A stretch of DNA of 64,000 nucleotides from an uncultured SAR86 cluster bacterium (lineage in GTDB: Bacteria > Pseudomonadota > Gammaproteobacteria > Magnimaribacterales > D2472): NCBI GenBank assembly GCA_902593675.1, contig CACJJI010000003.1, positions 1 through 64,000 of the forward strand, written 5' to 3'. The notes under the pieces were generated by a model, which saw nothing but the letters and a program-made list of their open reading frames with translations, was not told the origin of the DNA and did not search any database. Below, piece by piece: positions 9,697 through 19,507 of this stretch (the stretch's first letter is position 1; each line of letters opens with the position of its first letter). Made by a program: the position numbers and the translations under genes.

Positions 9697-11010
9697 CTAT
9701 TCATCACTAAGGTTTTTTTGATAGGTCTCAGTTAACGCCATAACTGACAGCAATGTTAGGAATGAAGCAAAAGATATATAAACAGATACCCAAAAAATTC
9801 CATAGTTATTCCAAAGGAAAGCAGCAATTGTTGGGGCAAATGCTCCACCTAATATTGCGCCAAACTGATAACCAAGGGTTGCTCCAGAATACCTTACTTC
9901 GGTAGAGAATAACTCAGTAAAAAAAGCCGCTTGCGGTCCATACATCATACCAACAAATATCAGCCCAGCTGAGATGGCTAAAACTACTAAACCGAAGTTT
10001 CCAGTATCGACAAGCGGAAATATTGCAAAAGCCCACAGACCCGTCAATACTGCGCCAGCCATAAATATTCCCTTCCTTCCATGCTTATCAGAGTAGGAAG
10101 AAAATATAAACTGGCAAGGGACCATGATTGCAGATGCAATCAATACTGCGGCTAACATATCATCTCTTGAGATTTCTGCGCTTGATACACCATACGCCAG
10201 CAAAAAAGCTATCAATATATAAAAAGTTACCTGAATTGAAAGAAAAGCCCCAGCAGCTAAAGATATCCGACTTGGATATTTTTTAATCGCTTCAATTATG
10301 GGAGATCGTCTGATAATTTTATTGCTATGCTGACCATCTCCTGTCATTGCCTGGAGTTCTTTAAAAGCTTTTGTATCCTCTAAATTGATTTGTATGTACA
10401 TGCTAATACCGATCAGAACTGCGCTTGCAAGAAATGGAATCCGCCATCCCCAAGAATAAAAGGATTCCTCTGAAACAAGAGAGCTTGTAACGATGAATGC
10501 AAGATTAGCTAAAATTACTCCCACTGGCGCACCAGCTTGAGCAAAGGCTCCATAATAGCCTCTTTGATTTGGAGGGGCACTTTCAGTTACCAGCAACATG
10601 GCTCCTCCCCACTGACCTCCAATTGCGAGACCTTGAGCAAAACGTAAAGAAGTAAGAAGAATTGGAGCAGTCACTCCAATCATTGCATAAGTTGGCAACA
10701 ACCCAATTAAAGTAGAAGAAACTCCCATTAAAATTAATGCAATTACTAATGTTTTTTTTCGACCGACTCTATCTCCATAATGACCAAAAATAATACCGCC
10801 GATTGGCCTTGCAATGAAACCTGCTGCAAAAGTTAATAAAGATAAAATTAAAGCTGTTGAAGGAGTTGCTTCTCCAAAAAAAGCTGTTGGGAATATTAGT
10901 GCGGCGGCTGCTCCATAAAGAAAAAAGTCATACCACTCTATGCTCGTTCCAGCCAAAGCTGTCAATGCAACCTTTTGCATGTTTGATTTTGAATGATCTT
11001 TATTTTCCAT
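9697..11010 (-). CDS. MFS transporter, metabolite:H+ symporter type
   Basis: A 12-helix major facilitator of about 437 residues. The signature GHYGDRVGRKKTLV between helices 2 and 3, the N-terminal GTSIEWYDFFLYG and RFAQGLAIGGQWGGA are those of the metabolite:proton symporter group (ProP, KgtP, ShiA). Substrates in that group are small organic acids or osmolytes; nothing here selects one. An upstream in-frame start at 11082 would add 24 residues unlike the family N-terminus, so 11010 is preferred although no clear ribosome-binding site precedes it. Confidence 0.85.
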   Translation of the reverse strand: MENKDHSKSNMQKVALTALAGTSIEWYDFFLYGAAAALIFPTAFFGEATPSTALILSLLTFAAGFIARPIGGIIFGHYGDRVGRKKTLVIALILMGVSSTLIGLLPTYAMIGVTAPILLTSLRFAQGLAIGGQWGGAMLLVTESAPPNQRGYYGAFAQAGAPVGVILANLAFIVTSSLVSEESFYSWGWRIPFLASAVLIGISMYIQINLEDTKAFKELQAMTGDGQHSNKIIRRSPIIEAIKKYPSRISLAAGAFLSIQVTFYILIAFLLAYGVSSAEISRDDMLAAVLIASAIMVPCQFIFSSYSDKHGRKGIFMAGAVLTGLWAFAIFPLVDTGNFGLVVLAISAGLIFVGMMYGPQAAFFTELFSTEVRYSGATLGYQFGAILGGAFAPTIAAFLWNNYGIFWVSVYISFASFLTLLSVMALTETYQKNLSDE

Positions 11011-11091
11011 CACAACAAAGTATTGTAAATGCTGGTGAAAGTAAAATTTTTTTGATGAAACATTGGCATGCAATTCCTGCATCCCTGTAAC

Positions 11092-11832
11092 TTATAAAAG
11101 TGAAGATATCCTTTCTTTTGCCCATTTAATTCCAAATTTATGAAAAGAATAATCCTGAAAGCTTAAGTGGGGTAGAGATAGTACGCTCAAATCTGGTATA
11201 AAAAGGTTTTCGGTTCTCAAATCTCCCTTGAAGAAATAACAAGACTTGTTTGCAGAGTTGATATAGTCAAACTTATCCTCTTCTTCTAGTTTGTTGCCAT
11301 CAAATTCATTTCCCATAATCTTGTGCCAAAAAAGGTCCCTTGCCATACTGCCATTAGCAATTATCAGTTTTGGTTTAACGATAGAAAGAAAATATTCTTG
11401 AATTGGCCAAAAAGTTTCCCTTCCATCCCTTTTTAATTGCTTTTTTGCTTTTGCAGCTGGCTTAATTTCTTCCTCATTTATAGGATTTCTAGGTTGATAT
11501 TTTTGTTCTCCAGGAGATCGTATAAATGATGTGTTAGTTGAAAATGTTTCTTCTAAATTTATTTCTAAGTCTCTGAATACTGATTTTATTGTCTCTTGAT
11601 GTTCGCTATTTCCCCAATCACCCTCAGTATATTCGTTCTTTTCTTTGGAAAGTTTCAATTGGTTTAAAATGGTATCAGGATAATCAAGTCTATTGCCACC
11701 AGGATTAGTTCCCAAAAAATAAAAATTTCCTTTACTGAGGGTTGAATCTCCTGAATAAATAATAGAACCAGACTCTTCTTCTAAGCCAGTTTCTAAGAGC
11801 AAATTTTTAAGTTTTAAAATCTTATCTTGCAT
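11092..11832 (-). CDS. uracil-DNA glycosylase superfamily-like protein
   Basis: A 246-aa soluble protein, last gene of a five-gene operon. FYFLGTNPGGNR (about 37) aligns with the GxNPG active-site motif of uracil-DNA glycosylases. IVKPKLIIANGSMARDLFW (about 150) matches the central beta-strand and helix of the fold (kPkvivxLGxxA), and LPHLSFQDY (about 220) stands where the HPS/HPSP motif should be. The three elements in the right order make the fold likely, but with LPHLS in place of HPS the activity may differ. It could remove modified bases or only bind nucleic acid. It overlaps the preceding ARPP-1 gene by 11 bases. Confidence 0.6.
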   Translation of the reverse strand: MQDKILKLKNLLLETGLEEESGSIIYSGDSTLSKGNFYFLGTNPGGNRLDYPDTILNQLKLSKEKNEYTEGDWGNSEHQETIKSVFRDLEINLEETFSTNTSFIRSPGEQKYQPRNPINEEEIKPAAKAKKQLKRDGRETFWPIQEYFLSIVKPKLIIANGSMARDLFWHKIMGNEFDGNKLEEEDKFDYINSANKSCYFFKGDLRTENLFIPDLSVLSLPHLSFQDYSFHKFGIKWAKERISSLL

Positions 11833-12778
11833 ATCTTCTATCCATATTATTAATTGCAGTAAGGTGGATCAATTCATTATTTAAAACTAGGGCATTTGAA
11901 GTAATTTGAGAGTCTCTGTCATAGATACTAAATTCTTCTCCAAGCTCTTTTTGATTAATTACTTCTTTGCCATACATAAGCTGAAGCATAAAAGAATTAA
12001 TTTCTTTTTCAGGAGATCTTGAACTTCTTCGATAATTTTCTATTAGTTCTATTAGGTGACTCTTATATAACCTTTCTTTATATTTGCTAAAAATCTCATT
12101 ATTTATGAACAAATCAAGTCCTATATATTTGCCTGGAATCATTACCAATAATCCAACTTGATTATCTTCCTCTTTAATCTTTTTACGAAGACTAGATAGC
12201 GATTCTTCAAATTTCTCATAAGTATCATTAACTGAGCCAGTTCTTGAGGATACTCCCATTCTCATTTGTTTATTTTGAATTGATGTCCAAACATTATCTT
12301 GAATTGAGCCAGATTGTTGATTATGTTTTGTAGAATTATTATGTAAGTCCTTCACACCCTTAGAATGATAATTAAACATATTTTTGCCTCTACTAAATGC
12401 ATTTGTTTTATATGCCCATCTTCCCTGTTCAACACAGCTAACTTTGATCTCTATTGATGAATTATCTGGAACAAACACTGACTCATTTGCTACACGATCT
12501 TGTTTGGCCCCATCAAATATTTCTCCATTTAATATTAACAATGGTTTGTTTGATAAATTTTCTACTAAGAGAGAATTTACTCTTTCTGTTTCATGGAGAC
12601 AAAAATAATTAGAATTATTTTTATCTATGGTTATGAAGTCTGCTGTTTTCCCTTTATTCGACAAAACTGGAATAAAAAATCCATCATAATTTTCAAATCT
12701 TTGTATTTTTGAAAAAAATGGTTCCTTTAAAAATAATGATGTTTGATTTGACTGAGGCTGAAGATTATTTAAATGCAT
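11822..12778 (-). CDS. ARPP-1 (DUF6569) domain protein
   Basis: A 318-aa protein. NGEIFDGAKQDRVANESVFV followed by IKVSCVEQGRWAY (about 85-125) is the conserved core of the ARPP-1/DUF6569 family, whose name refers to association with ADP-ribosylglycohydrolases and rhodanese/phosphatase proteins. No biochemical function is established as far as I know. A polar region (150-190) links this core to a helical C-terminal half with SSLRKKIKEE. It overlaps its neighbours by 10 and 11 bases, so it is made together with a UDG-fold protein. Family recognition is from the motif alone. Confidence 0.68.
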   Translation of the reverse strand: MHLNNLQPQSNQTSLFLKEPFFSKIQRFENYDGFFIPVLSNKGKTADFITIDKNNSNYFCLHETERVNSLLVENLSNKPLLILNGEIFDGAKQDRVANESVFVPDNSSIEIKVSCVEQGRWAYKTNAFSRGKNMFNYHSKGVKDLHNNSTKHNQQSGSIQDNVWTSIQNKQMRMGVSSRTGSVNDTYEKFEESLSSLRKKIKEEDNQVGLLVMIPGKYIGLDLFINNEIFSKYKERLYKSHLIELIENYRRSSRSPEKEINSFMLQLMYGKEVINQKELGEEFSIYDRDSQITSNALVLNNELIHLTAINNMDRRYAR

Positions 12779-13143
12779 AACTCATTCAACTGATATAGAT
12801 TGCCGTCGACATAGCTGCCTCTTTTCTTTCTAGATTTATATTGCCGTTTGTACCTATCAAAAATTTTTATACATGCCCAAGTTAATGAAGAATCTAGTTT
12901 TGAAATCTCTAGAAGAATCTGCTTCAACTGTTGATGAACAAACTCTCGGCTATTGCTCTGATACATTGACCAGATGACATTTTCATAATTAGAAAACCTG
13001 TGCAGTATTGTATAAACAATTTCTTGATCCTCTTTAAAATAACTTTTATGCGCGGGTCTATGTTTTATCTGACGTTTTACAGTCTTTTCGATCATATTTA
13101 GATCGATATTTGGATGCAGTTTGAATACGTATGAATTTTCCAT
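12769..13143 (-). CDS. unknown protein, middle gene of the accessory operon
   Basis: A 124-aa basic protein I do not recognise. It is mostly helical with a positively charged C-terminal third (FDRYKRQYKSRKKRGSY) that could contact nucleic acid, and the N-terminal half contains IKHRPAHKSYFKEDQEIVY. There is no signal peptide or membrane segment. Its last 10 bases overlap the start of the ARPP-1 gene and it follows the HTH gene by 11 bases. Coding status is supported by the tight packing and length. Confidence 0.55.
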   Translation of the reverse strand: MENSYVFKLHPNIDLNMIEKTVKRQIKHRPAHKSYFKEDQEIVYTILHRFSNYENVIWSMYQSNSREFVHQQLKQILLEISKLDSSLTWACIKIFDRYKRQYKSRKKRGSYVDGNLYQLNELCI

Positions 13144-13154
13144 AATCTCTACTT

Positions 13155-13400
13155 TTACCCTTCTAGAATTTCAAATATAGAACCATATATGGACTCATAA
13201 TTAAGCCTCCCCTCGGTAACCTTAATTATTTGCTTTGCTTGTGCAATAGAGGGCTGCCTATAACCATATCTCCAGGATTTGCAGGAAGCTTCGGAGCATT
13301 TAAAGTCTTTAGAAGCTTTTTTGTAACCTAAAAATTTTATATATCTTGAAAGAGTAATTTCATTCAATCGTCTTTCTTTAAAATTTTTACTTTCTGCCAT
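13155..13400 (-). CDS. small HTH (Cro/YdaS-like) DNA-binding protein
   Basis: An 81-aa protein with a probable helix-turn-helix: LSRYIKFLGYKKASKDFKCS then CKSWRYGYRQPSIAQAKQII and VTEGRLNYESIYG. The pattern of a first helix with G-x-K-x-A, a polar turn, a recognition helix ending in W-R-x-G-x-R-x-P-S and a trailing helix with T-x-G is that of Cro/YdaS-type phage and plasmid regulators. It overlaps the upstream small gene by 14 bases. It probably autoregulates the operon; this is inference. Confidence 0.6.
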   Translation of the reverse strand: MAESKNFKERRLNEITLSRYIKFLGYKKASKDFKCSEASCKSWRYGYRQPSIAQAKQIIKVTEGRLNYESIYGSIFEILEG

Positions 13401-13635
13401 TATTTACAATTTCTTGAATTTTCGTGTTACAAAAATCTGCATATGCTTGATGAGGGTTTAAAAATGTAGAAACATTTTTCTCAACATCACTTGATACTTT
13501 TGTGTGGCTTTTCTCAATCAGCAAACGAAGTTGATCTATTTTCTTTCTTCTTTCCAATTTACAGATTTTCTCAAGCAAATCATAAGTAGCTTTATCTACT
13601 GTAAGAGTCCTGTAGCCTTTATTAAAATCACCCAT
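13387..13635 (-). CDS. ribbon-helix-helix-like DNA-binding protein
   Basis: First gene of the operon, 82 residues. YRTLTVDKATYDLLEKICKL looks like the beta-strand plus first helix of a ribbon-helix-helix (Arc/MetJ-like) protein, followed by a lysine-rich helix ERRKKIDQLRLLIEK. Start 13635 is preferred to 13650 because GGAG lies nine bases before it. With the next gene, also DNA-binding, it could form a two-protein regulatory pair binding the intergenic region shared with the divergent 519-aa gene. Such pairs are common on plasmids and integrative elements. Confidence 0.55.
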   Translation of the reverse strand: MGDFNKGYRTLTVDKATYDLLEKICKLERRKKIDQLRLLIEKSHTKVSSDVEKNVSTFLNPHQAYADFCNTKIQEIVNNGRK

Positions 13636-13650
13636 AAAAAATTTCTCCAT

Positions 13651-13763
13651 ATGTACAATCTTGTGTTATTATTTAGTTATAAAAATATTAACAAATGATT
13701 ATAATACACATTTAAAAAATAATTACAAGTGTAAAATTAATAGATATATGATATAATTTATAA
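13651..13763. promoter_or_regulatory. divergent promoter region of the accessory locus
   Basis: A very AT-rich 113-base spacer separates the two divergent accessory units. A perfect TATAAT lies at 13752-13757, with TGTAAA at 13730-13735 as a possible -35 (16-base spacing). The expected transcription start falls on or next to the ATG at 13764, and there is no Shine-Dalgarno sequence, so the 519-aa gene may have a leaderless message. Short near-repeats CTTGTGTTAT, ATAATACACAT and TTACAAGTGTAA could be operators for the neighbouring RHH and HTH proteins. Confidence 0.4.
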
Positions 13764-15323
13764 ATGTATTCAAATAAAAAAGAAATTCAAAATAGATTGC
13801 ATTTAATCTTCTCAAAAATATCTAGTTTCAATTCTAAGGAAGGATTTGAACTAGTATCGGATATTTTTATGAACGAAGTTCTTATAGGGACCGCCCCAAG
13901 AAGCTCAAGTTTTCATAAGTCAATTGAACTTGCATTGATGCTTCTTTCTAACAATGAGTTAAGTAATATCTTTTGGAAGTCTTATGCGCAAACCTATCTG
14001 GTAAGCAGTTCTAATATTTATTTTGGTGATTTAAACATAAGTCATATTAGATCTTTAATTTCAAAAATGGAAAAAGAATCTAAGTCAAATGAAAGCTTAA
14101 AAGAGGCACTAGAAAGTTTTGAAAGATTTATTATCAGCAATGGTTTGCTAAAGAATTTATCAAAAAATTATATAGAATTTAATCCCAATCTAATAATAAA
14201 TAATATTGGAGCAACTGCTGCTCTCAATGACTCTGAGCATTTACTAGGTCCAATAATTTTCCGCGGAAAATCAATGTTAAGTAGAATGATTTTTAATATA
14301 TATGGCCTAAAAGTTGTTTCGGGTAGAGGGTTAGAAGACTACATTCACCCTGAATCAATTCCAAAATCAGATATTAATTATTTAATAAAAAGAAATCTCA
14401 TTAAAGATATTCCTCATGAATATAAAGAAAATTATAAAAATTATTTTGAGAAAGATCTTTATGATTTTAATAGCCCGCGCAGAGAATATATTTATTCTTT
14501 TATTAAGACAAAAGAATTGGAAGAGAAAATCTCCATGGAATCATATGGATTTGATGAGGCTGAGGATGACTTAGAGATAATAGTTGGTTTCAAAGAGATA
14601 TTGGAATTTAATCTTATTCATTTGTATTACAGATTAGAAGATTCATCAAATTTTCCTGATGCTTACATGGTTGAGGGTGCAATAAGGCATGCAATCAATA
14701 CCCTAAGACAATTGATTAAATATAAATTTGATTTATTTCATAACGAGGATATGGAAACTATCTCAGTTGAAGGGTTAACCCTAATTGCAGGCCTATCAAA
14801 TCAAGAATCAGTAAAAAATATCTTAAATCAAAGTAATTCTGAATTAAAAAAAATAGCTATTACTAAAAAAGAAAAAAACCCTTTTGGACATTTCGAAACC
14901 TATAAATCTGTTGAAATTGAGCGCAATTCAGCTATTCAATGGCTTAGAGATAGCAAGAGGAGATATGAAGTGTATGAATTAATTGAAGACGAAAAACCAT
15001 TGAAAAATATTGACTATACCTTCATTTCTGAAGAAATCGATAAAGCGAAAGAAAGGATTGAGAAGTCAAAAAAAGAAAAGATAACATTTAACGATAGTGA
15101 TAGATTTGCCCGAACTGATAAGGAAATTTTTGGGAGAGTTGCGCAACATAACAAAGACAGATGGGAGTGGATTGGCAAAGGTAAAACTTTTAAAGAACTC
15201 AACGAAAAAAATTCAACTTACAGGAAAAATATTAAAAGGAAAACATATCAGAAGAATAAATCACCCATCAATCATGACATTCTCTATGACCTAAATAGTG
15301 GTTATATTAAGCAAATAAAATAA
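13764..15323 (+). CDS. unknown 519-aa accessory protein with a C-terminal HTH
   Basis: Family not recognised. It is largely helical, with no signal or membrane segment. Around residues 330-400, ISVEGLTLIAGLSNQESVKN followed after a variable loop by a stretch with AIQWLRDSKRRYEV has the layout of a helix-turn-helix plus a helix with a W-L-x(3)-RR motif, as in some phage and island regulators. The C-terminus is lysine-rich (NIKRKTYQKNKS). It is divergent from the RHH-HTH-ARPP-1-UDG operon, from which it may share regulation, and its TAA stop touches the tRNA-Ile remnant. It is probably part of the flexible locus. Confidence 0.6.
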   Translation: MYSNKKEIQNRLHLIFSKISSFNSKEGFELVSDIFMNEVLIGTAPRSSSFHKSIELALMLLSNNELSNIFWKSYAQTYLVSSSNIYFGDLNISHIRSLISKMEKESKSNESLKEALESFERFIISNGLLKNLSKNYIEFNPNLIINNIGATAALNDSEHLLGPIIFRGKSMLSRMIFNIYGLKVVSGRGLEDYIHPESIPKSDINYLIKRNLIKDIPHEYKENYKNYFEKDLYDFNSPRREYIYSFIKTKELEEKISMESYGFDEAEDDLEIIVGFKEILEFNLIHLYYRLEDSSNFPDAYMVEGAIRHAINTLRQLIKYKFDLFHNEDMETISVEGLTLIAGLSNQESVKNILNQSNSELKKIAITKKEKNPFGHFETYKSVEIERNSAIQWLRDSKRRYEVYELIEDEKPLKNIDYTFISEEIDKAKERIEKSKKEKITFNDSDRFARTDKEIFGRVAQHNKDRWEWIGKGKTFKELNEKNSTYRKNIKRKTYQKNKSPINHDILYDLNSGYIKQIK

Positions 15324-15368
15324 TGGTGGGTCTGGGTGGACTCGAACCACCGACCTCACCCTTATCAG
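15324..15368 (-). repeat. duplicated 3' half of tRNA-Ile (attachment-site remnant)
   Basis: These 45 bases equal the 3' portion of tRNA-Ile from the first base of the anticodon loop (CTGATAA) to CCA. Identity with the intact gene at 18575-18652 covers 19 bases of anticodon loop and stem plus variable loop (15350-15368) and 13 bases of acceptor end, but the T-arm differs (GGTGGTTCGAGTCCACC here, GGAAGTTCAAGTCTTCC in the intact gene). The T-arm here is the usual bacterial form, so this looks like the displaced original 3' end and the intact gene carries the element's version. Confidence 0.87.
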
Positions 15369-15465
15369 AGCAAAGACTTTTTCTTATATTTGCTGATTCC
15401 TACTGATATCTAGGTTGGCAGCTACAATTCTCACCCAAATATAAGTAAATATTGAGACCTATTTC

Positions 15466-15759
15466 TTAATGCAAAGTCACGTCTTCTTCATAACAAAAGA
15501 TGTCACATAATTTGTCATTTATAAGTTTCTTTTCAGACATTTGTGAGTGAAATACAGAAGCTATTACACTCACTCCGTGCTCAGGACTTGATGTGAACTT
15601 AAATGCTATATCCATTGTTTCATTGAGCAATCCAATAATAACTGACTCAACACATAAGTCTTTTTTTGCACACTCTTTAATAAATCTATCTATATTGATT
15701 TGTGTTTCGTTAATTGATTCCTCACACAAGTTATCAAAAATGTTTTTCTTATTACTCAT
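15466..15759 (-). CDS. unknown small protein of the tRNA-Ile island
   Basis: A 97-aa cytoplasmic protein that I do not recognise. The N-terminal half is acidic and helical (ESINETQINIDRFIKECAKK); the second half has EHGVSVIASVFHSQMSEKK. It has five cysteines, which is many for its size. It is 12 bases downstream of the ATPase gene and so is almost certainly cotranscribed with it. A partner or small effector of the ATPase is possible; nothing in the sequence proves it. Confidence 0.5.
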   Translation of the reverse strand: MSNKKNIFDNLCEESINETQINIDRFIKECAKKDLCVESVIIGLLNETMDIAFKFTSSPEHGVSVIASVFHSQMSEKKLINDKLCDIFCYEEDVTLH

Positions 15760-15771
15760 GATTTAGAAGAA

Positions 15772-18033
15772 TTAATCTATATCCCTAATTAGAGGCATTA
15801 GTATTGGTGCAATTACCTTGCCCATCTTTAGTGAGTAGTCAGATAGCTGACCGTCATTTTCTTTATGCTCTGTTTTCATTATCAAGCCTAGTAATGCCAA
15901 AGCTGTTTTGTATTGAGAATTTATAAGCTGAGTTTCTTGAGGATTACCCTTTAGATAATTTTTTAAATATATGTTGTCCATATTTGCGTAAAAAAGAGGG
16001 TTTTCTCCATCAATAACCTTTAATGAATGTTCTTTTTGCATATCATTTTCTTCCCAATCTTCTTTATGAATTTCAATAATATCTGGAATTGAAAGGTTAT
16101 TCTTTTTCTTCCTCTCCCTTGGCTCTCCAGTTGGTCTTTCAGTTTTTTTAACCTTTTTTAAATAAAACTCTAGTCTAAATGGCTCAATCCTTTGCACATC
16201 AGTTATCTCCAGGACACATTTATTTTCTTCTTCATTTAGTGGCGGAACTGTAAGAAACCACTTTCCATTACTTCCTCCTAGAGCCACACCAGTAGCATTT
16301 GTAATATCTTTATCATTAATACTAAATTTGAAGGATCCTGAATCTTTTGGTCGCGTTAGATAGTCATTAGGGGCGTCTGTAGAAAGTTCTATCCTCGCTT
16401 TTCTAGTCTCTTCGGTCTCTCTGGGTCTGTCTTTATTATATTTTTTAGTAAGCTCAAAGAATGTTGGAAAAAAGCTATCATTAAACTCAGAAATTTCTTC
16501 TTCACCTCCCTCATTGAAGGGGTTCGTTAAGCCTCCACCAATATTTAATATTTTTGCTATATAAGGTTTGTTACTAATCAGCTTACTTAAAATATTTTTA
16601 AATTCTGTTTGATCCTCAGTTCTTCTTGCAATCTCATTCTGCCTCCACTTGTTAGCAAACTCCTTAAGTCCTGCATTATTTCTAATGTTGTATTCAATTT
16701 CTTCTTTTAAGCGATTTGTAAAATCATTCTCATACAACTGCTCTCTGTTGCTCTTAAAGAGTTTTTCAATAAATTTATTTGAAACCTCTGAGCAGTCAAT
16801 TGTTACAATTAAATTCTTTGCAATTAATTCATAACCAACACTCTTTTTTGAGAAAAACCTTCTTGGAAGAAAACCGTTAGTCTGTCCATTGATTGTAAAT
16901 AAAACTCCTTCGCCATATCTTTTCATGCTCACTGGCTTACCAGTTGACTCACTGTACTTATTGAAAGCATAGATATGTCCAGAGAAAGGCTGATCTTCCA
17001 CATTAAAACGAAATCCGGCTTGAAAGCCAATAACATCTGATCTATCTGAAGCTAATCTAGCATTTAAACCAAACAATGTTGTTTCAGCTGAATTTGCATT
17101 ATAGCCAGCTCTTCTCTCATAAAGTCTTGCTGGTATTACAGGATTAACAAGCAAGGTATTTAGTTTGTTGTAAAGGTCAAGGGTTATATTTGTTGCCATT
17201 CCTGAAGTATCAAAATCATACATTTTTATAAATGTTCCATATTTAAATGATTCCCCATATGGATTAGGATATTTTCCTGGATATAGATTTAGATCATCAG
17301 CTTCAAAGCTTGGGATTTCTTCGTCAATTCTTAAATACATCCATCTACTATTTCTGTATTGTTCAGTTGGCTCCACTTTTCTAATTAATGTAAAGCCCCA
17401 TTTACCATCGCCATCACCAAGCAACGGATTTCTTTTTGAAAGAATGAGTTGTAACCCATCACAAGAACAAAATGGAAGTGCTCCGTGAGAACCCATTCCA
17501 AACTTTCCTTGAACAAAAGGAATTTTTACTTTGTTATTTTTTGTTAGTGAAAGAAATGTATCTTCAAAATCTGTATGGTTCTGACCTTCGGCTTTATCAA
17601 TTACTGTGAATGTAGGTTTTGCTCCCTGTTTTTTTTCTCCAGTAGCAACTAATCCACAGTATTCTTCTGCAATTTCTGTTCTTTTGGATGCGCTTACATT
17701 TATCCAATTCCCATCATCAACATTAAATAGATTTATCATTGCTTCTTTAACATTTTGAGGATAATTATCATTTGATGGTTGAATATTTTTTTCTTTCACT
17801 TTGAGCATTAATGAACTGTCGCCACAGTTAATGAGTTTTTCAAGTAACGCATTGGCTGGATTTGATTGTTGATTTCCAACCACTGAATGAGTATTGATTG
17901 CAGAATTTCCACCCAATTCTTTCCAGTTATCTTCATCCCATAATTTTTCTTTCTTAAGAATGTTAACTACATCTTTACCATACTCAGATTTAGCAATTGC
18001 TAGGCAAAGATCTTTTTTAGCAGATCTAGTCAT
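15772..18033 (-). CDS. GHKL/Hsp90-like ATPase of the tRNA-Ile island
   Basis: A protein of about 753 residues with the Bergerat ATP-binding fold near the N-terminus. The N-box is ALLEKLINCGDSSLM (about 60), the DxGxG-like segment is VIDKAEGQ (about 145), and the glycine-rich lid is VQGKFGMGSHGALPFC (about 180). The central region continues like an Hsp90/MutL middle domain, and the C-terminal part contains KKVKKTERPTGEPRERKKKN. Start 18033 gives an 8-base overlap with the preceding small gene; an upstream start at 18087 would overlap 62 bases. Proteins of this shape are frequent in defence islands. The ATPase fold is well supported; an antiphage role is inference. Confidence 0.7.
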   Translation of the reverse strand: MTRSAKKDLCLAIAKSEYGKDVVNILKKEKLWDEDNWKELGGNSAINTHSVVGNQQSNPANALLEKLINCGDSSLMLKVKEKNIQPSNDNYPQNVKEAMINLFNVDDGNWINVSASKRTEIAEEYCGLVATGEKKQGAKPTFTVIDKAEGQNHTDFEDTFLSLTKNNKVKIPFVQGKFGMGSHGALPFCSCDGLQLILSKRNPLLGDGDGKWGFTLIRKVEPTEQYRNSRWMYLRIDEEIPSFEADDLNLYPGKYPNPYGESFKYGTFIKMYDFDTSGMATNITLDLYNKLNTLLVNPVIPARLYERRAGYNANSAETTLFGLNARLASDRSDVIGFQAGFRFNVEDQPFSGHIYAFNKYSESTGKPVSMKRYGEGVLFTINGQTNGFLPRRFFSKKSVGYELIAKNLIVTIDCSEVSNKFIEKLFKSNREQLYENDFTNRLKEEIEYNIRNNAGLKEFANKWRQNEIARRTEDQTEFKNILSKLISNKPYIAKILNIGGGLTNPFNEGGEEEISEFNDSFFPTFFELTKKYNKDRPRETEETRKARIELSTDAPNDYLTRPKDSGSFKFSINDKDITNATGVALGGSNGKWFLTVPPLNEEENKCVLEITDVQRIEPFRLEFYLKKVKKTERPTGEPRERKKKNNLSIPDIIEIHKEDWEENDMQKEHSLKVIDGENPLFYANMDNIYLKNYLKGNPQETQLINSQYKTALALLGLIMKTEHKENDGQLSDYSLKMGKVIAPILMPLIRDID

Positions 18034-18247
18034 CTTTAATAGAAAAGTTTGTCTTTTTTCTTTTGTTGAAGGAGCTTTTAACTTCATTAAGCTCAGCTTG
18101 AAGGGTAGAAACTATCCTTTTTCGTTCCTCGTCAGTATAAGAATAATGCCTTGTGTCAGCTAAATTTCCTATGAGTCGTATTCTTTTTAATGCTGAATTA
18201 ACTCTTTTATCAACAAGCCTTAAAAATCTGTCTCTTTTTATATCCAT
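18026..18247 (-). CDS. small helical partner of the island ATPase
   Basis: A 73-aa charged protein, first gene of the island operon. RVNSALKRIRLIGNLADTRH followed by YSYTDEERKRIVSTLQAELN and a basic tail is a pattern I associate with a widespread family of small proteins of unknown function found beside larger enzymes. Two amphipathic helices are likely. Its stop codon overlaps the preferred ATPase start (ATGACTAG), a classical coupling arrangement, so it should be made in proportion to the ATPase and may bind it. Confidence 0.6.
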   Translation of the reverse strand: MDIKRDRFLRLVDKRVNSALKRIRLIGNLADTRHYSYTDEERKRIVSTLQAELNEVKSSFNKRKKTNFSIKDD

Positions 18248-18574
18248 GTTGTAATTAAATAATATATAACAAAAATAGTCAATATATTGTCACATTATAT
18301 TTATATAACAATTTAAATCGTTATGTAGTAAATAATTGTTTAATATAAAAGATATATATGCAAAAAAATTTTTCATTAATATGAATATTTAGCTTTTTTA
18401 AAGGGTTTAGGCAATAAACTATCAAGTAGAGATATACAAAAATTAATTATGAAATTAATTCTCACCCACTTCTCACCCGCTTTTTTTGTTTTAAGTGGCG
18501 AAAGGATTTAAAGGCCAGATTTGCTATCGCAGGCATGAAACCCGCATTCTTAAGCCTTTTTCTCAGTCTAGGAA
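18248..18574. other. gene-free right end of the island
   Basis: This 327-base stretch has no supported gene. The left half (18248-18420) is extremely AT-rich with ATATAACAA repeats and must hold the promoter of the ATPase operon. The right part holds AATTCTCACCCA at 18457-18468 and TTCTCACCC at 18470-18478, repeats of a site at the left end of the island, then a more GC-balanced stretch leading to the tRNA-Ile 3' end. The arrangement resembles the attachment region of an integrative element. Confidence 0.5.
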
Positions 18575-18652
<78 letters not shown>

Positions 18653-18711
18653 AATAAATTGGGAAAAGCGATTATAAACTAAACAATGATCTTGGGAAAC
18701 AAGCTGATGAA

Positions 18712-19104
18712 TTAATCCAGCTTGCCTTCCTCTCTAAGTTTTTGACGAATTTTTGTAGCGCTTATTTCAGTTACTGAACTATCAAATACCTCTTCTTCAA
18801 ATGTGTATCCAACTCCTCGACCGTAAGTAATATTAACAATGTTAGGCACAAGCATAATTTCATACTCTTGCCCCCTTCTGAAGCCGTCCTTCAAAAGTCC
18901 TGCTTCAATATTTTTACAAACTTCATCCCAATTAAAAGGATTATCATCTTGACCATCTCCTCCGGATGCACCTTGTACATCTCGAACTTGAATTGCTACC
19001 TGGCCTGTTTTAGCTATACATCTTTTGAATAATGCTTGGTGGCCATCATGCCAAGGTTGCCATCTTCCTAGCATCTGCACAGTTGGTTTTTTCCAATCAA
19101 ACAT
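18712..19104 (-). CDS. cytidylyl/adenylyltransferase-like protein
   Basis: A 130-aa nucleotidyltransferase-fold protein. GRWQPWHDGHQALFKRCI (about 13-30) is the GxFxPxHxGH-type nucleotide-binding motif with Phe replaced by Trp, and ISATKIRQKLREEGKL near the C-terminus is the ISxTxIR motif. The family transfers AMP or CMP to small phosphorylated substrates (NMN, pantetheine, glycerol-3-phosphate). It overlaps the preceding kinase-like gene by eight bases. I recall similar pairs in marine bacteria and marine phages, but the substrate is not known to me. A role in making an activated sugar or head group is the likeliest guess. Confidence 0.72.
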   Translation of the reverse strand: MFDWKKPTVQMLGRWQPWHDGHQALFKRCIAKTGQVAIQVRDVQGASGGDGQDDNPFNWDEVCKNIEAGLLKDGFRRGQEYEIMLVPNIVNITYGRGVGYTFEEEVFDSSVTEISATKIRQKLREEGKLD

Positions 19105-19507
19105 TTTTTAAAATCTCCTTGGCAACGTCATCATGGTTGTGTTCATTCCACTCAGTAATATGAAAATCAACTCTATCAGGATTTTGAAAAAGCTTATTAG
19201 TATCCTCGTATCTTCCTTCTTTGATAGTATCCATCCAGATCACAAGATCGGCATCAAAATTTTCTCGAGTTTCTTTGGTTGGGCATACGAAGTCACAAAC
19301 AACATATCGGCCATGTGATTTTTCAAAATCTGCAAAAGCCTTCATTCTCATAGACTGTCTTTTTCTACCTTCATCAGAAAAATCCCAGTCATTGGACATC
19401 TTTCTTACTTGGTCAGCGTTATACCATGCGGCATTTAACAAAGGCACTAATCTTTGAGTAAGATAGGTTTTTCCACTGCCAGGCAATCCCATTACTAGTA
19501 TTTTCAT
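19097..19507 (-). CDS. APS kinase-like P-loop kinase
   Basis: A 136-aa P-loop protein: Walker A GLPGSGKT at residues 7-14, then LNAAWYNADQVRKM, where true adenylylsulfate kinases have the LDGDxVR segment, and YVVCDFVCPTKETRE, like the APS-kinase segment around AFISPY. It is short compared with CysC (about 200 residues) and there is no sulfurylase nearby, so it is more likely a small-molecule kinase that supplies the nucleotidyltransferase encoded next to it, eight bases overlapping. Location beside tRNA-Ile hints at past transfer. Confidence 0.68.
   Translation of the reverse strand: MKILVMGLPGSGKTYLTQRLVPLLNAAWYNADQVRKMSNDWDFSDEGRKRQSMRMKAFADFEKSHGRYVVCDFVCPTKETRENFDADLVIWMDTIKEGRYEDTNKLFQNPDRVDFHITEWNEHNHDDVAKEILKNV

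Follow-up and report, generated by a model that had tools for sequence, protein, structure and literature searches.

An ARPP-1 gene overlapping a uracil-DNA-glycosylase-like gene in a patchy, mobile SAR86 cassette with a possible anti-phage role

The DNA analysed here, hereafter the window, is a stretch of 64,000 nucleotides (nt) from an uncultured SAR86 bacterium (contig CACJJI010000003.1), and our subject is a gene cassette in it that encodes an ARPP-1 (DUF6569) protein together with a protein predicted to have the fold of uracil-DNA glycosylases (UDGs). Five minus-strand open reading frames (ORFs) span 11092-13650, the longest start of the first of them lying at 13650, just past the end at 13635 given in the original prediction. 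They are transcribed in the order 87-amino-acid (aa) protein, 81-aa protein, basic 124-aa protein, ARPP-1 and 246-aa UDG-like protein (Table 1). The packing proposed earlier, five genes with overlaps of 10 to 14 nt, holds at three of the four junctions, which overlap by 14 nt (13387-13400), 10 nt (12769-12778) and 11 nt (ARPP-1/UDG-like), whereas the junction of the 81-aa and 124-aa genes is an 11-nt gap. The congener G074 carries the five ORFs and a divergent 519-aa ORF (p519) in identical order, with 74-94% aa identity and ratios of nonsynonymous to synonymous divergence (dN/dS) of 0.10-0.39; from the conserved order, the identities and these ratios we concluded that the ORFs are real and more than a chance arrangement. 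p519 belongs to the same cassette as the five-ORF operon. The 124-aa, 81-aa and 87-aa proteins and p519 gave no significant family in the libraries searched, and the earlier label of "two small DNA-binding proteins" is plausible for the 81-aa and 87-aa products, with matches that fall short of significance.

Table 1. Features of the ARPP-1/UDG-like cassette in the window. The inverted repeats were seen by inspection, with no chance expectation computed.
Feature	Position	Strand	Remarks
UDG-superfamily protein (predicted DNA-glycosylase fold), 246 aa	11092..11832	-	motif A GTNPGG (N43), W73, STN (N100), motif B PHLS (H222)
ARPP-1 / DUF6569 protein, 318 aa	11822..12778	-	PF20208
Overlap of ARPP-1 stop and UDG-like start, 11 nt	11822..11832	-	similarity to relatives also changes at this junction
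Basic protein, 124 aa	12769..13143	-	without significant family match
Putative Cro-type helix-turn-helix regulator, 81 aa	13155..13400	-	Cro E 0.091, below cut-off
Putative ribbon-helix-helix protein, 87 aa	13387..13650	-	Arc-like repressor E 0.11, insignificant
Divergent intergenic region, 113 bp	13651..13763		AT-rich, imperfect inverted repeats; second similarity breakpoint
p519, divergent 519-aa cassette gene	13764..15323	+	without library match; C-terminal ~80 residues are a module on other SAR86 proteins

The AlphaFold (AF2) model of the 246-aa protein has a predicted template modelling score (pTM) of 0.81 and a mean predicted local distance difference test score (pLDDT) of 79.8. A Foldseek search with this model gave 36 matches at E<=1e-3, all of which belong to the UDG superfamily, family 4 or UdgX, among them 4zby with a probability of 1.00 and E 1.0e-5; alignment by VIA-align with 4zbx, the solved family-4 UDG of S. 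tokodaii, gave Z 13.8 and a root-mean-square deviation (rmsd) of 3.4 A over 171 residues at 16% identity. The predicted model, Foldseek and VIA-align all point to the UDG superfamily, and we concluded that the modelled fold of the 246-aa protein is that of a UDG, as the original prediction had it. In fold and motif positions the protein is like the family-4 UDG, UdgX, TDG and SMUG1 proteins (PF03167); it is unlike a family-4 UDG in its identity to 4zbx and in its lack of a significant Pfam match. The profile comparison with UDG families gave a divided answer, as five of nine family members match PF03167 weakly (best E 5.7e-4) and the window protein is not among them. A profile built from the nine sequences placed 4zbx first with E 0.0038, which is suggestive; a four-sequence profile gave no meaningful UDG match, 4zbx (E 0.62) standing behind unrelated staphylococcal complement inhibitors (E 0.055).

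Thirty-nine columns are invariant in all nine sequences compared (the window protein and eight others), including N43, P44, G45, W73, N100 and H222; the count excludes the Roseomonas, L131, L132 and L139 proteins and the G130 fragment. In the profile alignment, N100 is aligned with N82 of 4zbx. According to the published descriptions (here and below, the available parts of the papers cited), N123 of E. coli UDG reads O4 and N3 of uracil, and the N123D change leads to cytosine excision (PMC3989344); membership of the same superfamily suggests that this residue is equivalent to N82 of 4zbx. At the N82 position Brig1, an anti-phage alpha-glucosyl-hydroxymethylcytosine DNA glycosylase, carries E147, and its substrate is a cytosine derivative (PMC11078745). 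Since N100 probably corresponds to the uracil-reading Asn, where Brig1 has E147, uracil- or thymine-type bases are predicted to be the more likely targets of the SAR86 protein.

The ARPP-1 protein matches PF20208 with E 1.1e-61 and 209.2 bits (cut-off 27), and by this profile match its identity, also as originally predicted, is beyond doubt. In an alignment of eight sequences (A2), 23 residues are invariant, including R95, C115, E117, R120, W121, Q160 and H305, and the stretches SCVEQGRW and GxxxxGxKQxR are preserved; such a pattern would be expected of an enzyme. This alignment was gathered by profile or tblastn before the pattern scan and is free of pattern bias. The 80 retained ARPP-1 loci were located by the pattern V[SAF]C[VI]E[QH][GRS]RW, and the invariance of V113, C115, E117, R120 and W121 in the larger alignment A5 (the window and 54 loci, from 74 usable and 55 non-redundant sequences with L094 dropped) is built in because that stretch was the search pattern. 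The AF2 model of ARPP-1 is confident (pTM 0.87), and no convincing solved fold was found for it: the structural matches are weak and mixed, with Z <=4.4 among those listed and a Foldseek probability of <=0.20 among the 50 matches listed, and many of the listed ones are GntR effector-binding or chorismate-lyase folds. ARPP-1 is named after the ADP-ribosylglycohydrolase gene type, the family name reportedly going back to work by Burroughs and Aravind in 2023. In the open-licence literature searched we found no paper on DUF6569 and nothing relevant on ARPP-1 together with a UDG or rhodanese.

ARPP-1 occurs in 4 of 199 genomes of the order, and the same four were found among 120 relatives: the window genome, G074, G116 and G010, the latter three belonging to the window's genus or family. 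In all four cassettes ARPP-1 overlaps the UDG-like gene, a Cro-like small gene is present and p519 lies divergent to the operon. The linkage put forward in the original prediction is thus kept in the other three SAR86 genomes, with the small genes rearranged or replaced in two of them. The cassettes of the window and G074 lie on the major facilitator superfamily (MFS) side of a nadR-like gene, two peptidase genes also lying between in G074, and those of G116 and G010 lie between selO (recognised by PF02696 in G010) and a gene that we take from its sequence to be prmC; the same 11-nt ARPP-1/UDG overlap is found at the two chromosomal sites, behind two glycosylase lineages. The G116 and G010 cassettes carry, after the glycosylase, the Cro-like gene as well as a further gene of 124/125 aa. 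The window's 124-aa protein is 90% identical in G074 and 54% in G010 at the aa level and has a 98-aa relative in G149, with no match in the G116 region; the 87-aa protein is found, among the three relatives, only in G074, and the 81-aa protein in all four cassettes.

The region from the MFS gene to the kinase/nadR-like pair (window 9697-19507) is a variable site in the genus. Of 21 other congeners with the site marker, the regions of 16 were read: the MFS and nadR-like genes are directly adjacent, with no insert, in five; a type I restriction-modification system occupies the site in G178; the remaining regions hold peptidases, a 520-aa gene or other genes, or have no MFS gene; and the cassette was found in none of the 16. 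Matches to p519 occur in 15 of the 199 genomes of the order, mostly to its C-terminal module only, and at the prmC/selO site of G002 a 56-aa ORF retains the p519 C-terminus, a remnant from which it appears that cassettes also get lost. The cassette is patchy in distribution, sits at variable chromosomal sites and is mobile.

Several other genes at the window site are recorded here. The split kinase and nucleotidyltransferase pair (18712-19507) together match one phage family, phrog_10255, and flank the site in a conserved way, the kinase being present in 23 of the genus's 26 genomes, with the window genome counted. Between p519 and the nadR-like gene lie an ORF at 15466-15759 (-) and a gene for a 771-aa protein (15772-18087, -) with motifs that presumably are those of GHKL ATPases; this protein has no significant library match and no match in the G074 region, and among the 26 genomes of the genus it was found only in the window genome and, in part, in G127. 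It is possibly a second defence gene at the site. The C-terminal module of p519 (15048-15323, with HN..R.EWIG.GKTF... and NSxYR.NIKR) is also seen in L123, L129, L132, L141, L142 and L144, where it stands alone or is fused to proteins that by eye look unrelated. As it is fused to or lies beside several kinds of protein, it was rejected as a partner specific to UDGs; the protein fused to it in G092 (L132) is weakly like the UDG-like family (hhalign E 8e-4, probability 24%) and a 225-aa neighbour in G149 even more weakly so (probability 6%, Pfam UDG E 0.061), and nothing rests on either match.

We compared the window and G074 cassettes gene by gene. The synonymous divergence (dS; Nei-Gojobori method, high values saturated) is 0.083 for ARPP-1 and 0.234, 0.157 and 0.197 for the 124-aa, 81-aa and 87-aa genes, against 1.085 for the UDG-like gene, 0.795 for p519 and 1.49-2.54 for four flanking genes. 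In steps of 60 nt, the DNA identity is 67-90% in the glycosylase gene and mostly 92-100% from ARPP-1 onward, drops again in the divergent promoter and climbs a second time at the p519 3' end, so that the breakpoints lie at the ARPP-1/UDG boundary and in the divergent promoter. Between G116 and G010, ARPP-1 has 91% aa identity and the glycosylase only 41% over the aligned positions, the G116 glycosylase being closer to those of G027 (60%) and G008 (54%), and the DNA identity falls on both sides of ARPP-1. These contrasts indicate that the ARPP-1 block has moved separately from the genes around it and that different glycosylases follow it with the same overlap. By these sequence comparisons, the histories of the glycosylase and of the ARPP-1 block are distinct, and the pieces have been exchanged independently. 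In the tree of the UDG-like family only two of seven inner branches are well supported and the Roseomonas outgroup forms a long branch; for this reason the replacement of the glycosylase is argued from the identities and not from the tree.

Members of the UDG-like family turned up in ten of the 199 genomes of the order, in six of them with no ARPP-1 match. In G027 the UDG-like gene overlaps an N6/N4 methyltransferase gene by 11 nt, followed by a D12 methyltransferase and DpnII; this DpnII-type restriction-modification operon (L124 8495-11781), with the UDG-like protein as its first gene, is possibly a combined restriction and glycosylase unit. In G008 a single 69-aa ORF separates the UDG-like gene from a type II restriction enzyme, and in G035 the next gene, truncated at the end of the contig, matches DrmE of DISARM below threshold (E 0.0038) and has no PADLOC match. 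Defence genes are thus neighbours in the relatives G027 and G008, and at the window's insertion site in G178. The DpnII and G008 type II nuclease families are each present in one of 198 genomes of the order, namely G027 and G008. RecB/RNase H-like nuclease/helicase genes are also found no more than about 3 kb from the UDG-like gene in G027 (L124 3740-7084) and G005 (L126 2904-6230, by eye), and another adjoins ARPP-1 and an ADP-ribosylglycohydrolase on a Pimelobacter plasmid (L012 12552-14204); this proximity may be due to chance. A search at the level of the class gave two matches among 274 genomes, the window genome (G000) itself and G790 (E 3e-6), the latter protein being a general member of the UDG superfamily (Pfam UDG 25.1 bits). 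The closest relatives found outside SAR86 are encoded on plasmids (four of Roseomonas, one of Sphingobium) and are 28-32% identical to the G027 protein; of three of these five records inspected, two have the gene near integrase/recombinase genes, one of them also near an AbrB/PIN pair.

Outside SAR86 a different picture was obtained. One scan of public genomes gave 526 ARPP-1 loci, of which 80 were retained; removal of three SAR86 cassettes left 77. The question raised with the original prediction, whether ARPP-1 and this UDG-like family travel together outside the lineage, was answered in the negative: no member of the family was found in the available flanks of any of the 77 loci, many of which are on short contigs with often incomplete flanks, and other UDG families would escape this search. 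The pairing therefore looks lineage-bound, the UDG-like partner of ARPP-1 being seen only in SAR86. ADP-ribosylglycohydrolase genes were found near ARPP-1 at 5 of 82 non-SAR86 loci (the 77 and five fetched otherwise), supported by Pfam in one case, by annotation in one and by similarity only in three. ARPP-1 was not found in phage records; two distant members are present in IMG/VR contigs, whose available stretches contain no match to the UDG-like family or to ADP-ribosylglycohydrolases.

The cassette was set beside Brig1 and Brig3 by fold and published descriptions. These two UDG-fold proteins excise modified bases of phage DNA and so halt replication, and each lies near a predicted ADP-ribosylglycohydrolase gene (PMC11078745, PMC13160076). 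The SAR86 protein is like Brig1 in its UDG fold, in having the S. tokodaii family-4 UDG as its closest solved structure and in size (246 against 261 aa); Brig1 homologues lie in defence islands and Brig1 itself adjoins a predicted ADP-ribosylglycohydrolase gene (PMC11078745). Restriction genes lie beside some SAR86 relatives, and the ADP-ribosylglycohydrolase gene type is found near ARPP-1 at some loci. The SAR86 protein is unlike Brig1 in its base-reading residue, Asn instead of Glu, and the surroundings of the three other SAR86 cassettes yielded no ADP-ribosylglycohydrolase. The resemblance to Brig3-BapA lies in a UDG-superfamily glycosylase with an overlapping partner gene, BapA having been of then-unknown function; BapA strips glucose so that Brig3 can act, which broadens the target range, and N50 and P51 of Brig3 resemble N43 and P44 of the SAR86 protein by eye (PMC13160076). 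In gene order the two systems differ, Brig3 being ORF1 and BapA ORF2, whereas ARPP-1 precedes the glycosylase in SAR86 (PMC13160076). The published model of BapA is moreover of ASCH type, with two beta-barrels; the weak and mixed structural matches listed for ARPP-1 include no ASCH chain and so lend no support to ARPP-1 being a protein of this type. Given the precedent of Brig1 and Brig3-BapA, the removal of modified bases from phage DNA, as suggested in the original prediction, is a reasonable proposal (PMC11078745, PMC13160076).

In the SAR86 cassette, ARPP-1, two putative small regulators and p519 accompany a protein of UDG fold by prediction whose active-site residues are conserved. We give an even chance to the reading that this is a mobile anti-phage cassette with a Brig-like, exchangeable glycosylase as effector and ARPP-1 as accessory; by the way it would work, it can be counted among the anti-phage DNA glycosylases. 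The UDG-like protein would be a DNA N-glycosylase that removes from invading DNA a modified base not found in the host, most likely of uracil or thymine type, and the resulting abasic sites would stop replication as with Brig1 and Brig3. With less assurance we suggest for ARPP-1 the part of a constant accessory, either a sensor or an enzyme acting on bases or DNA, that works with whichever glycosylase follows it and may help by processing the modification or by sensing infection. Target specificity would lie with the glycosylase, and expression would be under the control of p519 and the small proteins. The independent exchange leads to the corresponding prediction that the glycosylase sets the target base and that ARPP-1 is generic.

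A number of results weigh against this reading. PADLOC gave no significant match for any gene of the cassette. The window's UDG-like protein has no significant sequence match in the libraries searched, PF03167 included; the pLDDT of its model averages only about 64 over the motif A residues 41-50, and the best Foldseek match has modest TM-scores of 0.42/0.51 with an rmsd of 6.5 A, so that the active-site geometry is only putative. The four cassettes may share one ancestor, in which case their agreement does not amount to four independent events. Of the six UDG-like genes without ARPP-1, two adjoin clear restriction genes, that of G130 is a fragment, and around those of G090 and G005 no clear defence gene was recognised. 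The two nuclease families counted across the order, DpnII and that of G008, were picked for counting after the adjacency had been seen. No member of the UDG-like family was confirmed in IMG/VR, and none was found in phage records with the G027 protein as query. Finally, the occurrence of ARPP-1 without the UDG-like family elsewhere means that the pair may be coincidental cargo.

This last point bears on an explanation that we hold to be possible but doubtful, namely that the neighbours share an island only as cargo, with the glycosylase working alone and ARPP-1 doing an unrelated job. It would account for the six of ten genomes in which the UDG-like gene has no ARPP-1 match, for the 77 non-SAR86 loci and for the separate histories of the two genes. 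It sits less well with the same 11-nt overlap being kept at two sites behind two glycosylase lineages, and with the fact that, in the SAR86 genomes searched, ARPP-1 was never found without the UDG-like gene (4/4 paired).

Housekeeping or accessory base-excision repair, in which the protein would remove uracil or damaged pyrimidines from host DNA, fits the UDG fold and position 100, where the Asn is of the canonical uracil type. We nevertheless consider it improbable: the gene is patchy (10/199) and mobile, it lies beside restriction genes in two relatives, and the window genome has another UDG, a separate PF03167 protein on contig C7. This other UDG, together with the rarity and mobility of the gene, makes ordinary repair a less likely role, and the UDG-like protein is probably not the ordinary repair UDG. 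Very unlikely, in our judgement, is a non-catalytic or covalently binding, UdgX-like DNA sensor that triggers ARPP-1 as a toxic effector, for although UdgX structures rank high in the fold comparison and the conserved polar residues of ARPP-1 are enzyme-like, the Asn of motif A and the His of motif B are preserved as in active enzymes and UDG-like relatives exist without ARPP-1.

Anti-phage DNA glycosylases were discovered only recently (papers of 2024 and 2026), and few systems are known; the cassette described here adds a candidate with a partner of its own, ARPP-1, in a ubiquitous uncultured marine lineage. Its conserved Asn suggests targets of uracil or thymine type, unlike the cytosine-type targets described for Brig1 and Brig3. 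A wider proposal, which we offer tentatively and regard as rather unlikely, is that ARPP-1 forms the unchanging core of a modular immune system for deprotecting or processing modified nucleic acid, with lineage-specific partners that cleave N-glycosidic bonds, these being exchangeable UDG-fold DNA glycosylases in SAR86 and ADP-ribosylglycohydrolases elsewhere. If true, this would be the first mechanism for the widespread ARPP-1 family.

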